This document shows positions 3,023 through 21,144 of a stretch of DNA of 64,000 bases, one piece after another. Both the position numbers and the translations under genes were made by a program. This DNA is from Rhodospirillaceae bacterium (GTDB lineage: Bacteria; Pseudomonadota; Alphaproteobacteria; Rhodospirillales; Rhodospirillaceae). Below the pieces are notes generated by a model, which saw only the letters and a list, made by a program, of their open reading frames with translations, searched no databases and had not been told where the DNA came from. How positions within the stretch are numbered: position 1 is the first letter of the stretch; each line of letters begins with the position of its first letter. Location of the stretch: NCBI GenBank assembly GCA_029243545.1, contig JAQWRV010000022.1:1-64000 (forward strand). The letters run 5' to 3'.

Positions 3023-4228
3023 TCACCTTTTGGCGCCATTTAGAACATCGAGAACAGTCTCTATCACGCGCGTAGCGTCCTCATCTGTCATTGACGGGTA
3101 TAAAGGAATTGTTAACGCCCGGTTGTAGTAGTCCTCAGCGTTAGGAAAGTCGCCCCGTTGGTAGCCATATCGCTTGCTATAGTAGGGATGCAGGTGAAGC
3201 GGCATATAGTGCACTTGAACGCCTATACCGCGGGCCCTTAAGTCTTCAAATACCTGCTTCCGGGTCTTCGCAAGAGCCGACAAATTGAGACGGATAACGT
3301 AGATATGCCATGCGCTTTCACTGTCTTCCCGTACAGCTGGCGTTTGAAGCAAGTTAGAGCCCGAAAAAGCGGCCGCATAAAGGGCGGCTATCACCTTGCG
3401 GCGCTCAAGAAATAAATCGAGCTTCTTGAGTTGGCTCAACCCGAGAGCGCACTGAAGGTCTGATATTCGGTAATTCGCGCCAGGTTCCTGTACTTCATAG
3501 TACCAAGGTGCAAGCGTGCCTGACGACACCTCACCGTCAAAAGCTTCTTGTCCACCGATAAAACTCTGTTGATCGTGGATAATACCGTGATTGCGCGTCT
3601 GATTGAGATGCTGGGCGTATTTCTCCGAGTTAGTCACCACCATCCCACCCTCAGCGGTCGTTAGGACCTTGACCGGATGAAACGAAAAGCACGTCATGTC
3701 TGCTAATGTTCCCACTGACCGGCCCTTATAGGCGCCTCCCAGAGCATGGGCGCTATCGGCTATCGTAATTGCCTGTATTTCTTCTAACACGGCGGTAAGG
3801 CCATCCCAGTCACAGGGGTGGCCTGCAAAATCAACCGGCAAGACCGCTTTCGTTTTTGATGACAGAGCCGACTTTATAGTTTCCGGAGACAGGCCCCAAT
3901 AGTCGGGGTCAATGTCGGCGAAGCGGACTTCGGCCCCACACAAACGCACAGCAGCCGCCGTAGCCGCAAACGTAAGAGTAGGAATCACTGCCTCATCCCC
4001 TACTCCAAGACCAGCGGCCTGACAGGCGCAATGGAGTGCAGCCGTGCCTGATGCGACGGCAATACCGTATTGGGCACCTACTCGTGCAGCAACGTCAGAT
4101 TCAAACGCAGTGACAGTGGGTCCTGTCGTTAGCCAGTCACTCTTTAAAACGTCAACAACGGCTGTTATGTCAGCTTCATCAATGAGCTGGTGCCCATAGG
4201 GCAGAATGGGAGATTCATTCTCAGCCAC
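3023..4228 (-). CDS. pseC: UDP-4-amino-4,6-dideoxy-N-acetyl-L-altrosamine aminotransferase
   Basis: This 401-residue PLP enzyme of the DegT/DnrJ/EryC1/StrS family converts the PseB 4-keto product to the 4-amino sugar in CMP-pseudaminic acid synthesis. The cofactor lysine is Lys187 in FSFHPVKVLTTAEGG, and the N-terminal LPYGHQLIDEADI..V..VL and WLTTGP motifs are typical of PseC. The start is GTG at 4228. It lies 20 bases downstream of pseB on the same strand, the usual pseB-pseC pair, which supports the call over a general sugar aminotransferase. Cytoplasmic. Confidence 0.88.
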   Translation of the reverse strand: MAENESPILPYGHQLIDEADITAVVDVLKSDWLTTGPTVTAFESDVAARVGAQYGIAVASGTAALHCACQAAGLGVGDEAVIPTLTFAATAAAVRLCGAEVRFADIDPDYWGLSPETIKSALSSKTKAVLPVDFAGHPCDWDGLTAVLEEIQAITIADSAHALGGAYKGRSVGTLADMTCFSFHPVKVLTTAEGGMVVTNSEKYAQHLNQTRNHGIIHDQQSFIGGQEAFDGEVSSGTLAPWYYEVQEPGANYRISDLQCALGLSQLKKLDLFLERRKVIAALYAAAFSGSNLLQTPAVREDSESAWHIYVIRLNLSALAKTRKQVFEDLRARGIGVQVHYMPLHLHPYYSKRYGYQRGDFPNAEDYYNRALTIPLYPSMTDEDATRVIETVLDVLNGAKR

Positions 4229-4248
4229 TGTTTCGTATAAACCTCTGT

Positions 4249-5286
4249 TTAACCATACATGGCCCGTAGAACGTCAACATCCAACCAAGAGTCATTCGTA
4301 TCACTGACATATGAAAACTGTTCGTCCATCTTCTTGCCAACCAGAGGGTTTTCTCTTTTAGCACCGAAAACGCCATCAAAGGCTGGTTCAATAACGTAGT
4401 AGTCTCCACAATCTGTCGTCAGGTATCCTTCGTCTTCCGAGATTAGCGCCTCATGAAGTTTCTCACCGGGCCTTTTCCCAACCATTTTCTTCTCGATTTC
4501 CGGGGCTAGTGCGCTGGCCAGGTCCGTTATTTTGACACTCGGTATTTTCGGCACAAATATTTCACCGCCTTCTAGACGCAGAAGAGACGCAAGCACAAAG
4601 TTGCTAACTTGATCTAGCGTGGTCCAAAAACGCGTCATCCGCGGGTCTGTAATTGGGATGAAGGTAGCCTTTTCACGCACCAGCTTCTGGAAGAGCGGCA
4701 CAACACTTCCACGGGACCCCGCAACATTTCCATAGCGTACAACGCCAAATCGCGTGCCGCCCCTAGCGCTCAGATGATTGGCCGCTGAAAATATCTTGTC
4801 AGCCGCTAATTTACTCGCGCCATACAAATTAACCGGATTAACCGCTTTGTCCGTGGACAACGCTAGAACCTGTTTTACACCCGTATTGAGCGATGCTCTG
4901 ACAATGTTCTCTGCACCGATGACATTGGTGTGGATGCATTCGAATGGGTTATACTCTGCCGTCGATACTTGTTTCATAGCTGCGGCATGGATAACGATAT
5001 CAACGTCTCGAAGCGCCAGTTCCAACCTTTGCTGGTCTCGGACGTCACCTATGAAGTAACGCATATCGAGCCGGTTTGCTAAATCCGGATCAGACTGCAT
5101 TTCTGACTGCTTAAATTCATCCCTTGAAAAGACGATAAGCCGGCGCGGCGAAGTCAATGTGAGTAACTTCTTAACAAATGCCTGGCCGAAAGAACCAGTC
5201 CCACCCGTAACGAAAATACTTCTGTTATCGACCAGCCCCCTTAGATTCTCTAGAGCTGTTCCGATGGGTTCGAAGGTTGTTGTCAT
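4249..5286 (-). CDS. pseB: UDP-N-acetylglucosamine 4,6-dehydratase (inverting)
   Basis: This 345-residue extended SDR enzyme makes the 4-keto-6-deoxy-L-sugar nucleotide that starts the pseudaminic acid pathway. The dinucleotide motif GGTGSFG is at residues 28-34, the active site STDKAVNP is near 144-151, and Tyr155/Lys159 form YGASK. The FSRDEFKQSEM motif is diagnostic of the PseB/FlaA1 short-form dehydratases. It is the first gene of a leftward pair with pseC and is divergent from pseF across a 140-base gap (5287-5426) that must hold promoters for both directions. No clear promoter boxes could be assigned. Confidence 0.9.
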   Translation of the reverse strand: MTTTFEPIGTALENLRGLVDNRSIFVTGGTGSFGQAFVKKLLTLTSPRRLIVFSRDEFKQSEMQSDPDLANRLDMRYFIGDVRDQQRLELALRDVDIVIHAAAMKQVSTAEYNPFECIHTNVIGAENIVRASLNTGVKQVLALSTDKAVNPVNLYGASKLAADKIFSAANHLSARGGTRFGVVRYGNVAGSRGSVVPLFQKLVREKATFIPITDPRMTRFWTTLDQVSNFVLASLLRLEGGEIFVPKIPSVKITDLASALAPEIEKKMVGKRPGEKLHEALISEDEGYLTTDCGDYYVIEPAFDGVFGAKRENPLVGKKMDEQFSYVSDTNDSWLDVDVLRAMYG

Positions 5287-5426
5287 CCTGCTTTACCTGC
5301 CGCGTTAAATTATCAGCTCTTGAAGTATCGGGTACATTGCAAGTCTGCAAGGCTGTGGCCGATTCGTTGATCCATTATAGTTCGCCTGATAAAACTCAGG
5401 ATAACAGAAATTGATAGGTAAAAACG

Positions 5427-6131
5427 ATGGCCAGTAAGCCGTTGCGCGCGATTGCCGTTATACCCGCTCGAGGAGGGTCTAAGCGCCTTCCGGGCAAGAC
5501 GATGCTCCCTTTCCTGGGCAAGCCAATGATTTCCCATACCATTGAGGCGGCTATTGCGTCCGGCTGCTTTGACAAAATTACGGTTTCTTCAGATGACGAC
5601 GATATTCTACGAATATCTGCCAAATATGGCGCAACGCCCCATAAACGTAGCGACGCGTTGTCCGATGATTCAACTCCGACAGCGCCCGTTTTGCTCGACG
5701 TGATTGAAAACGAAGCGGCTAACGGCGACCAATGGGATGTTCTCGCCTGTCTATACGCGACCGCACCTCTAAGAACGTCGCTCGATATAAGGCAGGTCGT
5801 CGGCCTTATCGAGCCTGGACAGGGGGATTTTGCCATGGCGGTATGCGAGTCTGATAGGCCGGTTCATCAAGTCTTGCGGCAGAATAAGAGCGGTGTATTA
5901 GAACCCGTATTTGCCGAACTGGTTGGGGTCAATTCTCAATATGCAGATAAATACCTTTACGGTAACGGCTCCACATATGCCGTCAGTGTGCCGGCCTTCC
6001 AGATTACGAAATCACTATATGGTCCGGGCTTGCGTGGATATGAAATGCCACTGTCCCGTTCTGTCGATCTCAACACGGAAACCGATTTAGCGCTGCTTAA
6101 CTTTTACGCCAACCAAGCTAATCAGCTGTAA
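5427..6131 (+). CDS. pseF: Pseudaminic acid cytidylyltransferase
   Basis: This 234-residue member of the CMP-sialic-acid-synthetase family joins CTP to a nonulosonic acid, producing the activated sugar for a glycosyltransferase. The nucleotide-binding signature IPARGGSKRLPGK is at residues 12-24, and VSSDDDDI, LYATAPLR and the C-terminal DLNTETDL match PseF/NeuA enzymes. With pseB, pseC and pseI adjacent, pseudaminic acid is the most likely substrate, but legionaminic acid cannot be excluded from sequence alone. It is the first gene of a rightward set; pseI follows after 67 bases. Confidence 0.87.
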   Translation: MASKPLRAIAVIPARGGSKRLPGKTMLPFLGKPMISHTIEAAIASGCFDKITVSSDDDDILRISAKYGATPHKRSDALSDDSTPTAPVLLDVIENEAANGDQWDVLACLYATAPLRTSLDIRQVVGLIEPGQGDFAMAVCESDRPVHQVLRQNKSGVLEPVFAELVGVNSQYADKYLYGNGSTYAVSVPAFQITKSLYGPGLRGYEMPLSRSVDLNTETDLALLNFYANQANQL

Positions 6132-6198
6132 CGTATCCAACTATTCGAGAATTGGTGATAGTCTGATTCAACTAGGAAGACGATAAGGCAGGCTTGAT

Positions 6199-7299
6199 TT
6201 GTCGATCCAGACACCCTCACCAGATGACGATAATTCGATCAGAATTCATGACTGTTTGGTTGGTCCAAATCACCCTCCATTCGTCATAGCCGAGCTGTCT
6301 GCTAATCATGGTGGAAGCATTGAACGGGCGATACGTATTATTGACGGAGCTGCGAAGGCTGGAGCGCAGGCTGTAAAATTTCAAGCGTATACCGCTGACT
6401 CACTTACAATTGATAGCGAGCAAGATGAGTTTTTATTGACCGGAAAGTCTCTTTGGAGCGGACGGCGCTTGTATGACCTCTATACTGAGGCCGCAACGCC
6501 ATATGACTGGTTCCCAACCCTCTTCGAACATTGCCGGAATAACGGCCTCATCCCTTTTGCCAGCCCATTTGACCGAACCGCTGTTGAAATGTTGGAAGGC
6601 TTGAATGCTCCTGCCTACAAGATTGCATCCTTCGAAGCCGTTGATCTTGAGCTTATTTCAATATGTGCCGCTACTGGAAAACCCCTTATCATTTCTACGG
6701 GGCTATGCAGACGCGACGAAATCAGAGACGCGATTGATGCGGCTCGCTCGGCTGGGGGTAAAGACATTATCCTCCTACATTGCAACAGCGCCTACCCTGC
6801 TAATGCCAACGAAACAAATCTGCTTAATATTCCGTCTTTACAGGAACACCTTAGCGTTCTGGTCGGATACTCTGATCACACTTTGGGGACGCAATCATCT
6901 GCGGCCGCATGTGCACTCGGGGCCTGCGTAATTGAGAAGCACGTCATTGATTCCCCTGAACCTCCTACGGCAGATTCTGCATTTTCCCTGACACCTGACC
7001 TTTTGAGTGAATTGGTCGAGGACTGTCATGCTGCTTGGGTTGCAAGAGGCCAGGTTCAGGACGGTCCGACAGAGACTGAGAAAGGTAGCCTGCATTTTAG
7101 GCGGTCACTTTACGTGGTCGCGGATATGGAAGCGGGAGAGCAATTCACCCCATTGAACGTGAGGTCCATCAGGCCAGGACATGGCTTACCACCCAAACAT
7201 TTAAACGACATTCTGGGGAAAACAGCGTCCCATTCACTCAAGAGAGGTAAGGCGCTTAATTGGTCCATGATTCAAGACCGCCAATCTCCAGACGCATGA
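6199..7299 (+). CDS. pseI: Pseudaminic acid synthase (NeuB family)
   Basis: This 366-residue enzyme condenses phosphoenolpyruvate with the free 2,4-diacetamido hexose to give pseudaminic acid. The N-terminal TIM-barrel starts at FVIAELSANHGGS (28-40) with VKFQAYTADSLT after it, and a C-terminal SAF/antifreeze-like domain (about 300-360, RRSLYVVADMEAGE) closes the protein, as in all NeuB/PseI enzymes. The start is TTG at 6199; there is no nearby in-frame ATG. Its stop overlaps the ATG of the Nudix gene (ATGA at 7296-7299), showing translational coupling with that unusual partner. Confidence 0.88.
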   Translation: MSIQTPSPDDDNSIRIHDCLVGPNHPPFVIAELSANHGGSIERAIRIIDGAAKAGAQAVKFQAYTADSLTIDSEQDEFLLTGKSLWSGRRLYDLYTEAATPYDWFPTLFEHCRNNGLIPFASPFDRTAVEMLEGLNAPAYKIASFEAVDLELISICAATGKPLIISTGLCRRDEIRDAIDAARSAGGKDIILLHCNSAYPANANETNLLNIPSLQEHLSVLVGYSDHTLGTQSSAAACALGACVIEKHVIDSPEPPTADSAFSLTPDLLSELVEDCHAAWVARGQVQDGPTETEKGSLHFRRSLYVVADMEAGEQFTPLNVRSIRPGHGLPPKHLNDILGKTASHSLKRGKALNWSMIQDRQSPDA

Positions 7300-8045
7300 A
7301 AATACCTGCCACTTTTGTGGATCTTGAAGATGGATTGAGATCCTACGACGTTAATGCAGATGTTTCGATCGCTATTTCAGATGCTGGAGAGGCACCCAGC
7401 ACAACCACGCAATCTCATATCAATGTTATTTGGGAGGACGCGATAGCGCGCCAAGACCGTTTCCTTTTTGATGGTACAGTTCTTTCGGTCGCAAGCATCA
7501 CGCCTGAGCACATAACAGTCTACCGAGACTCATATAAATCGTTTTTTGCTCAGTGTCAGAAGCCAGAGCTATTCGAAGACCTAGCTATAAGACCGCTAGC
7601 GTGCTCAGGGCTTATACAGTGCAAGGACGGATTCGTTTTTGCTAAGCGTGGTAATCATATGTTCCTAGACGCAGGCTGCTGGGAACTGGCTCCGTCGGGG
7701 ACATTTGACGAAGACGCCGTAGATCGAGATGGCAAAATAGATGCTGGCCGGTTCCTTTTGCGCGAACTTCAGGAAGAACTTGGCGTTGAGCCCTCTTTGG
7801 CAAGGCCCGGAAAGGTTTTAGGGGTATTTGAACATCAGAAGTTTCGGGGCGTTGATTTAGCCATCGACGTTCAATTGGGCCTCACCAAAGAGCAATTGAG
7901 AATCCATTTTGAGGCCAATGATAATCAAGAATACAGTGCTTTAGCCGTCGTTCCCAAGAGTAAACTCGGAGAGTTCACAACTCAGGCTGATGCAAATTTC
8001 GTTCCCTTATCACTGCGACTTTTGGGCCGCACAGGTCTTATATAA
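7296..8045 (+). CDS. Nudix-domain hydrolase coupled to pseI
   Basis: This 249-residue protein has an N-terminal alpha/beta region of about 100 residues (IWEDAIARQDRFLFDGTVL) followed by a Nudix fold. The second half of the Nudix box is intact (RELQEELGV), but the first half (GTFDEDAVDRDGKIDAG) carries an insertion compared with the GX5EX7REUXEEXGU consensus. A tryptophan/FxG front region and a stretched box recall NUDT22/plant NUDT9-type UDP-sugar hydrolases; this is a memory-based comparison. The start codon lies inside the pseI stop (ATGA), so the two are made together. It may act on a nucleotide sugar of the pathway, for which no pseG is visible. Other substrates are possible. Confidence 0.75.
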   Translation: MKIPATFVDLEDGLRSYDVNADVSIAISDAGEAPSTTTQSHINVIWEDAIARQDRFLFDGTVLSVASITPEHITVYRDSYKSFFAQCQKPELFEDLAIRPLACSGLIQCKDGFVFAKRGNHMFLDAGCWELAPSGTFDEDAVDRDGKIDAGRFLLRELQEELGVEPSLARPGKVLGVFEHQKFRGVDLAIDVQLGLTKEQLRIHFEANDNQEYSALAVVPKSKLGEFTTQADANFVPLSLRLLGRTGLI

Positions 8046-8147: not shown

Positions 8148-9812
8148 ATGATTAGGTTTTTATTATTCGTAGTGTCTTTCCTTTTACCATTGAGTGCGAT
8201 AGCCGCGGACAGCCCACCGGTTCTGTTTGTAGAACAGAGTGAAGAAGCTGGGATTTCTGATCATGCCGTAAACAGTACCGGGCCAACTTTCGTCGACTAC
8301 GACAATGACGGAGACCTCGATATTTACATTCCGGCAGAGTCCTTGGCAGAGGGCATAGACAACAGGCTTTGGGAAAATGACGGTACCGGCAAGTTCACAG
8401 ATGTCGCAGTTGCGCGCGGCGTAGACAATCACGGCAGCTTAAGTCGTGGAGCGTCATGGGGCGACTATGACAATGACGGCGACCAAGACCTTGCCGTATC
8501 TAATATGCCGCCCGGTCAAGACCGACGAGCTCACGTACCGACGTCCCTCTTTAAAAACCTTTTGAACGAGACTGGCTCTGCAAATTTCGAGAATGTGAGC
8601 CGCTCAGCAGGCTTTATGCGCCATGGAAACGATGAGGATGCGCGTATCGGGGGCGTTGGCGATACCGGTGCCGGTTTAGCTTGGGGAGACTACGACAACG
8701 ATGGTGATTTAGATCTATTTTGGAAATGCGCCGATGCCCACGTTGAGAATGCTCTATTTCGCAACGATGGCGAAGGCACCTTTACGGACGTTACTGAAAA
8801 CTCCGGTGTCGCCATTCAAGGAAAAGTAATGGAGGCGAATTCGCAAGGCTCGCCGAGTTGGACGGACGTTAATGATGACGGCTGGGTGGATCTTCTTATT
8901 ACCAACGAAGGTGCCTCAAAAATCCTTTTGTTAAACAACAAGGATGGAACATTCGATGACATAACCCAGAGCCGCCGAGGACCGAACGGTTTCGCTTTCC
9001 TGAACCCCGGCAACGCCAACGGTGCTTGTGTCGGTGATATCGACAATGACGGCGATTTTGATTTTTACCTTCCAACGGCGGATCAAGCCAATAGGCTTAT
9101 TCTAAGCAACTTGGCGGAAAAAGGTGAAGTGAGCTTTAGCGACATCACGCTGACGTCTGGGGCGGGTGATCCGGGTGGGGCACGTGGCTGTACTATGGCC
9201 GACTTTGACAATGACGGTTACCTGGATATTTATGTCAATAATGGCGGACTTTCCAATGTATTGATAAACGACGTTATTGCACAAATGCCGATGTTTGTTC
9301 AGTTCTACATTGCGTGGGAGCCTGCCTACAACAAGCTCTACCGGAACAATGGCGACAGAACCTTTTCAGATATCACTGAAGGCTCGGGCGCAGAGGGATT
9401 TGGGATTGGCAGTGGCGTCGGAGCCGCAGACATAAATGAAGATGGATTTGCCGACCTCCTTCTGACCAATCGCACGTATTACAGCAACGGCGAGAGGGTT
9501 AATATTCCTCAACAGAACCACCTACTTATAAATCAGGCCAATGAGAATGCATGGATCAAAATCGCATTAACGGGCACAAAGAGTAACCGCAACGCCTACG
9601 GCGCAAAGGTGAAAGTGACTGCCGGAGATATGAGCCAGATGCGTGAACTCACAAGCGCGCACGGCTATAATTCAGCAGATGACCCGACCTTGCTCTTTGG
9701 GCTGGGATTACAAGAAAGCGTAGATGCTATCGAAATAAGGTGGCCAAGCGGCGTCGTGCAAAACCTTGAGAATATCGACGCGCGCCAAACGATTGACATT
9801 CAGGAGCCCTGA
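8148..9812 (+). CDS. Secreted FG-GAP/VCBS repeat protein with C-terminal ASPIC/UnbV domain
   Basis: The 554-residue protein starts with a Sec signal peptide (hydrophobic residues 4-15, cleavage near AIAA-DS). At least six calcium-binding DxDxDG loops follow (FVDYDNDGDLDIY and relatives), which form a beta-propeller. A C-terminal ASPIC/UnbV domain (about 465-550, SNRNAYGAKVKV, IRWPSGVVQ) makes it a CRTAC1-like extracellular protein. Such proteins bind ligands or carbohydrate outside the cell; none is a proven enzyme. It is inside the glycan island, 102 bases after the Nudix gene and in the same direction. Confidence 0.88.
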   Translation: MIRFLLFVVSFLLPLSAIAADSPPVLFVEQSEEAGISDHAVNSTGPTFVDYDNDGDLDIYIPAESLAEGIDNRLWENDGTGKFTDVAVARGVDNHGSLSRGASWGDYDNDGDQDLAVSNMPPGQDRRAHVPTSLFKNLLNETGSANFENVSRSAGFMRHGNDEDARIGGVGDTGAGLAWGDYDNDGDLDLFWKCADAHVENALFRNDGEGTFTDVTENSGVAIQGKVMEANSQGSPSWTDVNDDGWVDLLITNEGASKILLLNNKDGTFDDITQSRRGPNGFAFLNPGNANGACVGDIDNDGDFDFYLPTADQANRLILSNLAEKGEVSFSDITLTSGAGDPGGARGCTMADFDNDGYLDIYVNNGGLSNVLINDVIAQMPMFVQFYIAWEPAYNKLYRNNGDRTFSDITEGSGAEGFGIGSGVGAADINEDGFADLLLTNRTYYSNGERVNIPQQNHLLINQANENAWIKIALTGTKSNRNAYGAKVKVTAGDMSQMRELTSAHGYNSADDPTLLFGLGLQESVDAIEIRWPSGVVQNLENIDARQTIDIQEP

Positions 9813-18687: not shown

Positions 18688-19857
18688 TTAGGCAGGCACG
18701 ATCTCCTCCAAAGCACTGCAAACGGTATGAATATGCTCCAGCGGCATGGTCGGGTAGAACGGCACAGAAATGGTGGAGTCACCGAGTTCTTCCGCAATTG
18801 GAAAATCTCCTTCCTTGTAGCCACCGGTGTCCCGGAAATACTTGTGCAAATGGATCGCCCGGTAATTGACCACCGATTCAATTCCTCTTTCCCGCAGTTC
18901 TCCGATGACCAAGTCGCGTGAGGCGGCTCTAATCCATATATTGAAGACATGACGGGCATTTACGGAATCCGGCCTTTCGCCTTGAACTGCTATGCCCTTT
19001 ATCGGAGCGAGCAGGCTGCGATATAGGCCCGCGCGCTCAGCCCTCTTCTCCAGATTTGCGTTAAGGCGGTCCATCTGTGGCAACAGTATCGATGCATCAA
19101 GATTGCTGAGGTTATACTTCCACCCCATCCTAACCATGTCCCAATGGGTGTAGCCCTCTTCTGACCTGTCATAGGCTGTCTTTGTCATGCCATGGAGACG
19201 GATAAGACGAAGTTGTTCGTGAAGAGTTGATTTGTTAGTCGCAATTGCGCCACCCTCACCGCAGGTCAGGTTCTTTGTCGCATAAAAACTGAAGCAAGCA
19301 GCGTCGGATAATTGTCCTGGCCTGACTCCGTCTCTACTACCTTCGACACAGTGAGCCGCATCTTCGATAACCGCCAGTTTATGCTGGTCTGCGACAGCGC
19401 GGACGGCCCTCATATCAACCATCATTCCATAAAGGTGCACTGGCAATATCGCTTTTGTCTTGGGCGTGATTGCCGCCTCTATGCATTCAACATCTATGTT
19501 TCCGGTATCTGGTTCGACGTCGACGAACACTGGTTTTGCACCGGCTTCAAGAATAGCTGTCGCCGTTGCAATAAAAGTCATCGGCGTCGTGATGACTTCA
19601 TCGCCTGCACCAATATCCAATGCCATCAGGGCCATATGCATGGCCCCCGTGCAACTGGTCACGGCCAATGCGTGTTTCGTTCCTAGATAATCGGAAAACC
19701 GACCCTCAAAATCCGCCGTGACCTTACCCGTCGTAATAATAGGGTCTTGCAACGCGGCCTCAAAAGCCCTGACCTCTGGCTCTCCTAAATCATGACGATA
19801 GAAGGGGATTTTTCTGGTGTCCGTTGACGCCATCTTAACGTTACTACTTGCGGTCAT
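18688..19857 (-). CDS. DegT/DnrJ/EryC1/StrS sugar aminotransferase
   Basis: The 389-residue PLP enzyme has cofactor lysine Lys195 in FSFYATKNLTCGEGG and the EDAAHC motif at 165-170. It transfers an amino group to a 4- or 3-keto nucleotide sugar. It is clearly distinct from pseC, so it should serve a second amino sugar, possibly with the dehydratase at 9960-10997. Its ATG overlaps the stop of the GNAT gene (ATGA, 19854-19857), indicating coupled translation of an aminotransferase and an acetyltransferase that would act in sequence. Confidence 0.88.
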   Translation of the reverse strand: MTASSNVKMASTDTRKIPFYRHDLGEPEVRAFEAALQDPIITTGKVTADFEGRFSDYLGTKHALAVTSCTGAMHMALMALDIGAGDEVITTPMTFIATATAILEAGAKPVFVDVEPDTGNIDVECIEAAITPKTKAILPVHLYGMMVDMRAVRAVADQHKLAVIEDAAHCVEGSRDGVRPGQLSDAACFSFYATKNLTCGEGGAIATNKSTLHEQLRLIRLHGMTKTAYDRSEEGYTHWDMVRMGWKYNLSNLDASILLPQMDRLNANLEKRAERAGLYRSLLAPIKGIAVQGERPDSVNARHVFNIWIRAASRDLVIGELRERGIESVVNYRAIHLHKYFRDTGGYKEGDFPIAEELGDSTISVPFYPTMPLEHIHTVCSALEEIVPA

Positions 19858-20399
19858 TTTGAAAGCGAAGGGTAATCGATTTTAAGTAAGGACATAATCA
19901 TCACGTCTTCGTAATGACCATTCACAAAATAATGCTCGCGCATTACACCTTCACTCTTAAAGCCAGCTTGATTGAATAGATTGACAGCCCGTTCGTTGGT
20001 CCCACGCACCATTACATAGATACGATGAAGATTGAGAGACCTAAAAGCATACTCCACCGTATGAGCCAGCGCCTCGGCCCCCACGCCCTTGCCTTGGAAC
20101 TTCGTATCACCAATCATGATACCAAACTGAGCGTTTGAGGACTGATAGTCGATATCTGTGAGTGAACAGAACCCGATCAGACGCGAATTCTTTACAAGTT
20201 CTATTGCAAAATAGGCTAGCGACTTATCATTGCCGTCCAATACTTTGTCGTACCAGCGATCTTCCATGACGTCGGTCACTGGAAATCGAAAACCCATTAC
20301 CGCGTCTCTGATCTCAGGCAGGTTACGCCAGGACAAAGTTGTATTTTTGTCTTGGCGCGTGAATGCCCGAAGGCGAATTGACGGTGATTCAATATTCAT
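19854..20399 (-). CDS. GNAT N-acetyltransferase (PseH/RimJ-like)
   Basis: The 181-residue protein has the GNAT fold with SRLIGFCSLTDID, the acetyl-CoA loop KFQGKGVGAEAL (about 100-110) and the LNLHRIYVMVRGTNERAVNLFNQAGF C-terminal pattern. PseH, which N-acetylates the 4-amino sugar after PseC, belongs to this family, so this gene could complete the pseudaminic pathway or acetylate the product of the adjacent aminotransferase. ATG 20399 is used because longer versions would run into the upstream methyltransferase gene, whose stop is 13 bases away. Confidence 0.8.
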   Translation of the reverse strand: MNIESPSIRLRAFTRQDKNTTLSWRNLPEIRDAVMGFRFPVTDVMEDRWYDKVLDGNDKSLAYFAIELVKNSRLIGFCSLTDIDYQSSNAQFGIMIGDTKFQGKGVGAEALAHTVEYAFRSLNLHRIYVMVRGTNERAVNLFNQAGFKSEGVMREHYFVNGHYEDVMIMSLLKIDYPSLSK

Positions 20400-20412
20400 T
20401 GCTTGAGACCAA

Positions 20413-21144
20413 CTATCCACCGAGTGTAGGGCTATTTTTGTATTTCGTCTGCATAGGCCATTTGTTCCCTCGATCATGTAGCTTCTGCGCAACAACACTC
20501 ACCCAGCTATTGTCAGGTACATTTCCAAATCTCTTCGTCGGGGGCAATTCAAATAACTGATAATCCATTTCTTTATGGACGTAACCGTATATTGGGCTTG
20601 GAAGTCTATGGCCATTGTCAATGTAGTAGTCGTAGTAAAACGTGGGAGAAAAATTGAAGAAGCCGTGGTTCATAACGACCAGTGGGTTCCCATGTATTAC
20701 AAAACCGTTCACCTTTGCCATGGAAACGAGATTATTGATCACCTGACCAATATTGAAACAGTGTTCCATTGTGCCGCCATCAAGAACAATATCGAATCTA
20801 CCATTAAGCTCTGGAGGAATCGGATGGTTCAAATCGCATATAATTTCCCCTCCACGTACTTCGCTAATATCCAGAACTGTTATTTCTATTCCTAGTAATT
20901 CGAGCAGACTTCGTGTTTCAATAACTTTATCCAGTTTTCCACCCAAGCTATGCCACGCGATAATTTTGTCCGAGTCGTCTCTGTAGGCAAGCTTGTCTAT
21001 GATGTCTTTTCCAAACATCTCACCCACAAGACTGGCCGGCACAAGACAATCTGGATAGCCTACAGTAACAAGTGCGATAGGCCGTGAACTTATGTGCGGC
21101 ATCACTTGCTCAAATAGGTCCAGGGTCAGCTTGCCAATGGCCAT
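20413..21144 (-). CDS. Class I SAM-dependent methyltransferase-like protein
   Basis: The 243-residue protein contains a weak nucleotide-binding start (ALVTVGYPDCLVP), an acidic loop (EITVLDISEVRGGEIICDL) and the motif FDIVLDGGTMEHCFNIGQVINNL, typical of Methyltransf-type proteins in polysaccharide clusters. A methyl acceptor cannot be predicted. It is the first gene of the leftward six-gene run ending with asnB. Confidence 0.65.
   Translation of the reverse strand: MAIGKLTLDLFEQVMPHISSRPIALVTVGYPDCLVPASLVGEMFGKDIIDKLAYRDDSDKIIAWHSLGGKLDKVIETRSLLELLGIEITVLDISEVRGGEIICDLNHPIPPELNGRFDIVLDGGTMEHCFNIGQVINNLVSMAKVNGFVIHGNPLVVMNHGFFNFSPTFYYDYYIDNGHRLPSPIYGYVHKEMDYQLFELPPTKRFGNVPDNSWVSVVAQKLHDRGNKWPMQTKYKNSPTLGG

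Follow-up and report, generated by a model that had tools for sequence, protein, structure and literature searches.

How a pseudaminic acid locus can supply its synthase with free sugar when the usual sugar-releasing enzyme, PseG, is missing is the question raised by a 64,000-nucleotide stretch of DNA from a Rhodospirillaceae bacterium (GenBank assembly GCA_029243545.1, contig JAQWRV010000022.1, positions 1 to 64,000; hereafter the window). In this stretch the gene for pseudaminic acid synthase, pseI (6199..7299, + strand; 430.9 bits against TIGR03586, above the cut-off of 340.25), is followed by a gene for a Nudix hydrolase of 249 residues (7296..8045, + strand). As an earlier note on this DNA had reported, the two genes overlap in an ATGA (7296..7299, + strand) that holds both the pseI stop codon (TGA, 7297-7299) and the Nudix start codon (ATG, 7296-7298). 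PseG is a single enzyme of GT28/MurG-like fold that is thought to release the sugar directly. It is known from the Campylobacter/Helicobacter pathway as the hydrolase of uridine diphosphate (UDP)-6-deoxy-AltdiNAc (TIGR03590), and its net job, according to a passage of PMC7910423, is to convert the UDP-sugar into the free sugar used by PseI. The earlier note had suggested that the Nudix protein could replace PseG. The absence of a PseG match, the co-occurrence pattern and a predicted NUDT22 fold described below support this suggestion, with the enzyme activity being predicted, and we conclude that a Nudix hydrolase and a HAD phosphatase together probably replace PseG, in two steps instead of one.

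In the proposed route, PseB and PseC, together with an N-acyl enzyme, would make a UDP-linked 2,4-diamino-2,4,6-trideoxy sugar. The Nudix enzyme would then take the missing PseG's step by cutting the pyrophosphate of this UDP-sugar, a HAD-type sugar phosphatase would strip the remaining phosphate, and PseI would condense the resulting free sugar with phosphoenolpyruvate. The net job would be that of PseG, the difference being that the Nudix enzyme would yield sugar 1-phosphate and uridine monophosphate, leaving the HAD enzyme to finish. For the window lineage, in which no HAD gene adjoins the Nudix gene, an unlinked phosphatase is assumed. The reaction, its substrate, the order of the steps and the phosphatase used in the window's organism are what we infer, and replacement of PseG by the Nudix and HAD enzymes explains most simply the fold, partner gene, gene fusion, mutual exclusion and locus swap presented below. 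A two-step nonulosonic acid route with a HAD phosphatase is already known from Neu5Ac-9-phosphate phosphatase, and there too the HAD phosphatase accompanies a NeuB-type synthase. Whereas that route removes the phosphate after condensation, the Nudix-HAD route would remove it before, because pseudaminic acid precursors are 6-deoxy sugars and cannot carry that phosphate. In the open-licence literature we found nothing connecting the synthesis of nonulosonic acids with Nudix enzymes, subscription papers being mostly uncovered and most matches judged by their listing; the Nudix named in a pseudaminic acid paper is, in the part concerned of PMC8987622, EvaA. We therefore rate the Nudix-HAD route as a new variation on the known pathway.

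To establish the absence of PseG, we searched the whole genome from which the window comes (3,475,158 bases in 38 contigs, rated 100% complete and 3.74% contaminated), with open frames confirmed at their earlier coordinates and families scored against the curated NCBIfam cut-offs. No match to TIGR03590 was found anywhere in this genome at E ≤ 10, whereas the same lax search, run as a control, was positive in 10 of 14 genomes. The lack of a PseG match, for which the earlier note had named a full-genome search as a check, thus extends to the whole genome. The window Nudix protein itself matched no NCBIfam model at 0.001, that of PseG included. An open reading frame of suggestive length, ORF444, was considered as a PseG-PseH fusion and rejected. 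Two close relatives, G254 and G295, have it between pseF and pseI, and a third, G269, has it behind pseF; in the two loci scanned (L023 and L026) its match is to the surface carbohydrate protein model TIGR04396.

The Nudix protein is a member of a divergent family that Pfam barely detects (PF00293, E 0.12 for the window protein). When 297 genomes from the order, including the window's own, were searched by sequence, 20 proved to carry this family, with the other members 26-38% identical to the window's; a match in G146 (E 7.8e-4) was antisense of recA and was removed before counting. Since a profile search of the same genomes returned the identical 20 and only one distant match in addition (G133, 56 bits), the family appears well separated in this sample. 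In an alignment of 20 members (A1, which includes the window protein and from which the truncated protein of G269 is absent), ten positions are invariant (W46, G105, R118, W129, E130, G135, E157, E160, E161 and E212). These comprise the metal-binding glutamates E157, E160 and E161, with the E-x-x-E-E part of the box intact, and E160 is nearly invariant in a wider alignment of 24 members. The classical Nudix motif reads GX5EX7REUXEEXGU; counted by eye, the step from G135 to R156 spans 21 residues instead of the classical 14, so the stretched box described earlier stands. On GTDB contigs, a scan with the single Nudix protein found no relative, and alignment A2 gave 24 loci, six of which duplicate order-sample loci; the others include four from Nitrobacter, one from Aeromonas sobria, two from Zavarzinia, one from a chlamydial metagenome-assembled genome (MAG) and several from planctomycete MAGs. 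A search of plasmids with the Nitrobacter Nudix protein gave no relative at E ≤ 1e-5.

The closest known structure is that of human NUDT22. When the AlphaFold2 model of the window protein (predicted local distance difference test score 94, predicted template modelling score 0.89) was compared with known structures by Foldseek, the top six matches were all human NUDT22 (best E 1.4e-16), with the next protein at E 1.2e-7. A second structural comparison (VIA) aligned 240 of the 249 residues with NUDT22 (Z 23.3, root-mean-square deviation 2.8 Å), and the next family, IPP isomerase (Z 16.4), aligned from residue 48 onward. As modelled, the window protein has the NUDT22 fold, consisting of an N-terminal domain and a Nudix domain. 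The NUDT22 likeness proposed in the earlier note thus holds at the level of fold and is divided at the level of sequence: searched against PDB sequences, the A1 profile ranked NUDT22 first of 10 (E 7e-4), whereas the profile of a wider alignment, A3, ranked NudI first and NUDT22 (E 0.069) behind others too. The fold is shared with the human enzyme over nearly the full length, N-terminal domain included. Human NUDT22 is a UDP-glucose pyrophosphatase, and its type of reaction, as given in part of PMC10101856, is the one proposed here. The two differ in that identity in the structural alignment is about 18%, and the window protein is bacterial and shorter, sits in a biosynthetic cluster and has a HAD partner in most relatives.

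We found that the Nudix gene and PseG exclude each other among the PseI genomes of the order sample, in which 94 of the 297 genomes carry PseI above the cut-off. The Nudix gene was present in none of the 78 PseI genomes with a PseG match at E ≤ 1e-3, a group in which 11 genomes have sub-cut-off PseG matches only, some of them weak or distant from pseI, and in 11 of the 16 without such a match (Fisher p 6e-11, ignoring descent). Under curated cut-offs, none of 67 genomes with PseG had the Nudix gene, compared with 11 of 27 without PseG (p 1.9e-7, again ignoring descent). Grouping by genus and state gave none of 36 with PseG, compared with 8 of 11 without (p 5e-7, with the same disregard of descent). 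This Nudix type therefore does co-occur with pseI where PseG is lacking, as the earlier note had asked. Four genera (g13, g35, g66 and g71) contain species of both states. Furthermore, none of 12 Nudix genomes reached via named loci, including the four Nitrobacter and A. sobria, had a PseG match at E ≤ 1e-3; these 12 overlap the order sample, as L085 is apparently the same as G265.

Descent was taken into account with a PseI/NeuB tree of 60 rows, from which duplicates were excluded, in which the PseG rows were hand-picked, and in which L104, L029 and L090 have very long branches and unsure placement. The Nudix label changes six times on this tree, with at least four changes forced by supported branches, and the window PseI falls within a supported clade of seven Nudix-linked PseI proteins. 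Only four independent pairs of PseI rows could be drawn from the tree (p 0.125, compared with the descent-blind Fisher tests); of these, an average of 3.8 went in opposite directions and none in the same direction. Replacement of PseG by the Nudix enzyme and a phosphatase has most likely been repeated several times.

Genus g71 offers a view of one such exchange. In G119 and G103 the genes for PseG, a GNAT and PseI lie in a row, and in G095 the same arrangement is found as a mirror image; the GNAT, which scores 32-34 bits against the GNAT model, is presumably PseH. In G210, the place of PseG and GNAT is taken by a methyltransferase-like gene (named by eye), a HAD gene and the Nudix gene, followed by PseI. 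Beyond PseI, nine aligned stretches of G210 are 74-93% identical to G095, PseI itself is 83% identical to that of G095 and 79% to that of G119, and for the stretches that precede the swap the identity is 30-78%. A methyltransferase-HAD pair also adjoins the Nudix gene in A. sobria and in a planctomycete. A 439-residue frame in G210 was rejected as an artefact of GC-rich DNA, as the frame before the HAD matches no family and the position is occupied by a methyltransferase-like frame.

The HAD gene in this swap is a recurrent partner. We counted 32 non-redundant core loci, omitting duplicates (L085, L086, L089, L094, L097, L098, L123, L125 and L126), seven distant loci (L102-L108, 65-93 bits) and the class-level loci L160-L166; L034 and L042, two contigs of one genome (G065), are within this count. 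According to a hidden Markov model scan, 25 of the 32 have a HAD gene of sugar-phosphatase type no more than 5 kb from the Nudix gene; three of these HAD neighbours (L028, L033 and L034) are cut by contig ends. In 19 of the 32 the HAD gene is on the same strand and at most 25 bp from the Nudix gene or overlapping it, and 21 have PseI or NeuB no further than 1.2 kb from the Nudix gene. In L031 (G265) pseI, GNAT, HAD and Nudix are consecutive genes. In L036 (G079), GNAT, HAD and Nudix form one chain of 619 residues, which, judged by its domains, would combine the three activities required to turn the product of PseC into free sugar. By comparison, a 592-residue frame in G290 that resembled a HAD-Nudix fusion was rejected as a frame artefact of GC-rich DNA, the HAD (L025:8973-9599) being in a different frame from the Nudix.

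Active-site residues of the HAD proteins are kept in 11 of 12 aligned rows, with the twelfth reading DLDCT instead of DLDGT (C for the G of DxDGT). By sequence and fold their relatives are the carbohydrate phosphatase TM_1254, beta-phosphoglucomutases, proteins named as pyrophosphatases and the phosphatase domain of mannitol-1-phosphate enzyme MtlD, and the nearest structures are mostly sugar-phosphate enzymes. Because this group is broad, the sugar phosphate proposed as substrate is only a prediction. The module HAD shares fold and active-site residues with the HAD-IA sugar phosphatases and the beta-phosphoglucomutase group (TM_1254, MtlD phosphatase domain), and is unlike them in its association with Nudix and PseI/NeuB genes as well as in its own invariant cap signature, LNG.

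Several observations weigh against the replacement of PseG by this pair. Besides the sub-cut-off PseG matches, the small number of independent tree pairs and the A3 profile ranking given above, they concern first of all the window, whose cluster yielded no HAD like that of the module. The phosphatase that the earlier note expected to be needed after the Nudix step is present as a nearby or fused HAD in most relatives, but was not found in the window cluster. No phosphatase family was found in ten further window open reading frames scanned at 25-62 kb either, other frames not having been scanned. The window's own genome has three HAD_2 matches, all on other contigs than the window's, and what most resembles the module HAD there is a generic match (24% identity, E 2.7e-6); in the closest relatives (G295, G254, G269 and G236) only weak and unlinked HAD matches were found. 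In G094 a HAD adjoins PseI, but the Nudix gene is on a different contig. Moreover, 5 of the 16 PseI genomes without a PseG match also lack the Nudix gene (G047, G154, G178, G191 and G194), two of which carry little weight, as the G194 genome has a completeness of 57% and PseI of G191 is on a 3.1-kb contig. Other Nudix members occur outside the expected setting. Those of G340, G471 and G645 (L164, L165 and L163; 161-178 bits) have no HAD, PseG or PseI nearby, the scanned neighbours being housekeeping genes (RF3, FtsJ, Ppx/GppA and rpsD in L164; G6PD and rpsD in L163; L165 is similar in layout), and L102-L108, distant forms from planctomycetes and cyanobacteria, also lie outside such clusters. 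Since some members lie outside sugar clusters, bacterial NUDT22-like proteins probably have more than one role.

The last of these points is the coexistence of Nudix and PseG. In G046 (L029) both are found in one cluster, and PseG was found in two of seven further class-level Nudix genomes searched (G351 and G478, of another order in the same class; G482, another of the seven, seems to be the same genome as L096). In these two, PseG and Nudix occur within one open frame behind a HAD gene. The frame holds Nudix, cytidylyltransferase, PseG and GNAT, in this order between HAD and PseI (domains by Pfam in G478 only), and amounts to 1008 residues in G478 (L161:9279-12302) and 1154, with an upstream part, in G351 (L162). 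The PseG part passes the cut-off in both G351 (203 bits) and G478 (200 bits), and in G478 a methyltransferase precedes the HAD gene. Because G046, G351 and G478 carry both, the Nudix-HAD module can stand beside PseG. As a separate observation, the G046 locus also holds a PseF-like domain fused to a pseudaminic-acid-associated methylase (L029:6229-7548; TIGR03584 and TIGR03587).

Such coexistence leads to the alternative that survives best, which we nevertheless consider unlikely: the Nudix-HAD pair would not replace PseG, and would make a second free sugar, for a second or modified nonulosonic acid, from a UDP-sugar with a different N4 substituent (formyl, methyl or an unusual acyl) that PseG refuses. 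This would fit the three genomes with both enzymes and also the variable nature of the enzyme beside the Nudix-HAD pair, which is a GNAT in L030, L031, L032, L036, L037, L038 and L042, a formyltransferase in L031 and L039, and a methyltransferase in L095, L101 and L161 (by Pfam) and in L035 (by eye). It is less easily reconciled with the 11 Nudix-bearing PseI genomes, the window's among them, without any PseG match, in which the main sugar needs some freeing enzyme; in addition, no modifying enzyme lies directly beside the window Nudix gene, although methyltransferase genes are found some kb off in G295 and G236.

Nudix enzymes are often house-cleaning enzymes, and this general knowledge is the starting point of another alternative, to which we give a lower probability. 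Here the Nudix enzyme would remove dead-end or excess UDP-sugars, such as the C5 epimer made by PseB, and an unrecognised enzyme would replace PseG. The family members outside sugar clusters in G340, G471 and G645 and the five PseG-less PseI genomes that manage without Nudix agree with this, but it leaves unexplained the mutual exclusion with PseG and the g71 swap, as well as the HAD partner and the GNAT-HAD-Nudix fusion. That the window lineage's pathway is incomplete or decaying, with the Nudix gene a remnant, is the least probable explanation of all. It accords with the failure to find a PseG match or a module HAD, the sub-cut-off PseH-like gene 11-12 kb off and the broken cluster of G269 but not with window pseB, pseC and pseI above cut-off, a Nudix protein retaining every invariant residue, and a pseF-pseI-Nudix order preserved in G236 and, with one inserted gene, in G295 and G254.

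Replacement of PseG by the Nudix and HAD enzymes therefore remains our preferred reading, and the adjoining genes suggest an extension of it. The variety of the adjoining enzyme and the coexistence with PseG suggest that the Nudix-HAD pair may be preferred when a substituent other than acetyl sits on the 4-amino group. More broadly, and rather tentatively, we propose an interchangeable cassette, consisting of an N4-modifying GNAT, formyl-, methyl- or acyltransferase, a HAD and a NUDT22-like Nudix enzyme, that would repeatedly replace PseH-PseG before PseI/NeuB and so enable pseudaminic-type sugars with substituents that PseG refuses. In G290, an E1-beta-like gene and a gene resembling a lipoyl-domain/hexapeptide acyltransferase (L025:6710-8976, by eye) lie directly before HAD and Nudix; it is possible that they supply a 2-oxoacid-derived acyl donor for the sugar. 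If the replacement is real, surveys that demand PseG would miss pseudaminic acid producers such as Nitrobacter and A. sobria, the NUDT22 branch of Nudix enzymes would gain a biosynthetic role, and the gap in several pse clusters would be explained. The Nudix and HAD enzymes and the natural GNAT-HAD-Nudix fusion would then also be new enzymes for making unusual nonulosonic acids in vitro.

As for the remaining pse genes of the window, the earlier note had listed pseB, pseC, pseF and pseI as present. This holds for pseI, for pseC (UDP-4-amino sugar transaminase, 3023..4228, - strand; TIGR03588, 461.6 bits, cut-off 423.5) and for pseB (inverting UDP-GlcNAc 4,6-dehydratase, 4249..5286, - strand; TIGR03589, 470.8 bits, cut-off 407.75), all of which pass their cut-offs. 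The putative cytidine monophosphate-pseudaminic acid synthetase (5427..6131, + strand) scores 154.6 bits against TIGR03584, below the cut-off of 205.7, and can only be called PseF-like; its product is 56-59% identical to the counterparts at L023, L024, L026 and L027. Promoter, terminator and repeat scans around pseI-Nudix gave nothing useful or above chance.

A PseH-like GNAT had been placed at 19854..20399 (- strand; GTG start possible at 20498). It is PseH-like (TIGR03585, 83.8 bits) and the only PseH match in its genome at E ≤ 1e-6, but it falls below the cut-off of 93.1; a search of 13 Nudix-bearing genomes gave no match that passes this cut-off. Its role in the window's pse pathway is uncertain, because the gene shares 4 bases with a second DegT aminotransferase gene and lies 11-12 kb from pseI. 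Close to this second DegT gene and the GNAT gene (18688-20498) lie an asparagine-synthase-like gene and two that resemble radical-SAM genes (all named by eye), and the region is perhaps another amino-sugar pathway to which the GNAT belongs.

Further observations concern pse clusters elsewhere. In genus g47, PseG, Nudix, pseB and pseC were not found within about 9 kb of PseI at L111, L112 and L113 (G154, G178 and G047, all rated 100% complete). Positions 1-4000 of L026 (G269) hold a decayed pse cluster in which pseC and pseB are fragmentary, pseI is missing from its position and the Nudix gene lacks its N-terminal part, next to intact PseF and neighbours. In Nitrobacter winogradskyi (L087:10054-10475), pseB looks broken: ahead of pseC it is recognised as no more than two short pieces that overlap and are in different frames. 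Finally, the gene downstream of the window Nudix (8148..9812, + strand) encodes an FG-GAP/UnbV-ASPIC protein by Pfam, for which we propose no role in the pathway. It is a conserved downstream neighbour in the closest relatives and is 73-76% identical in L023, L024, L026 and L027, which exceeds the conservation of PseC, PseF, PseI and Nudix.

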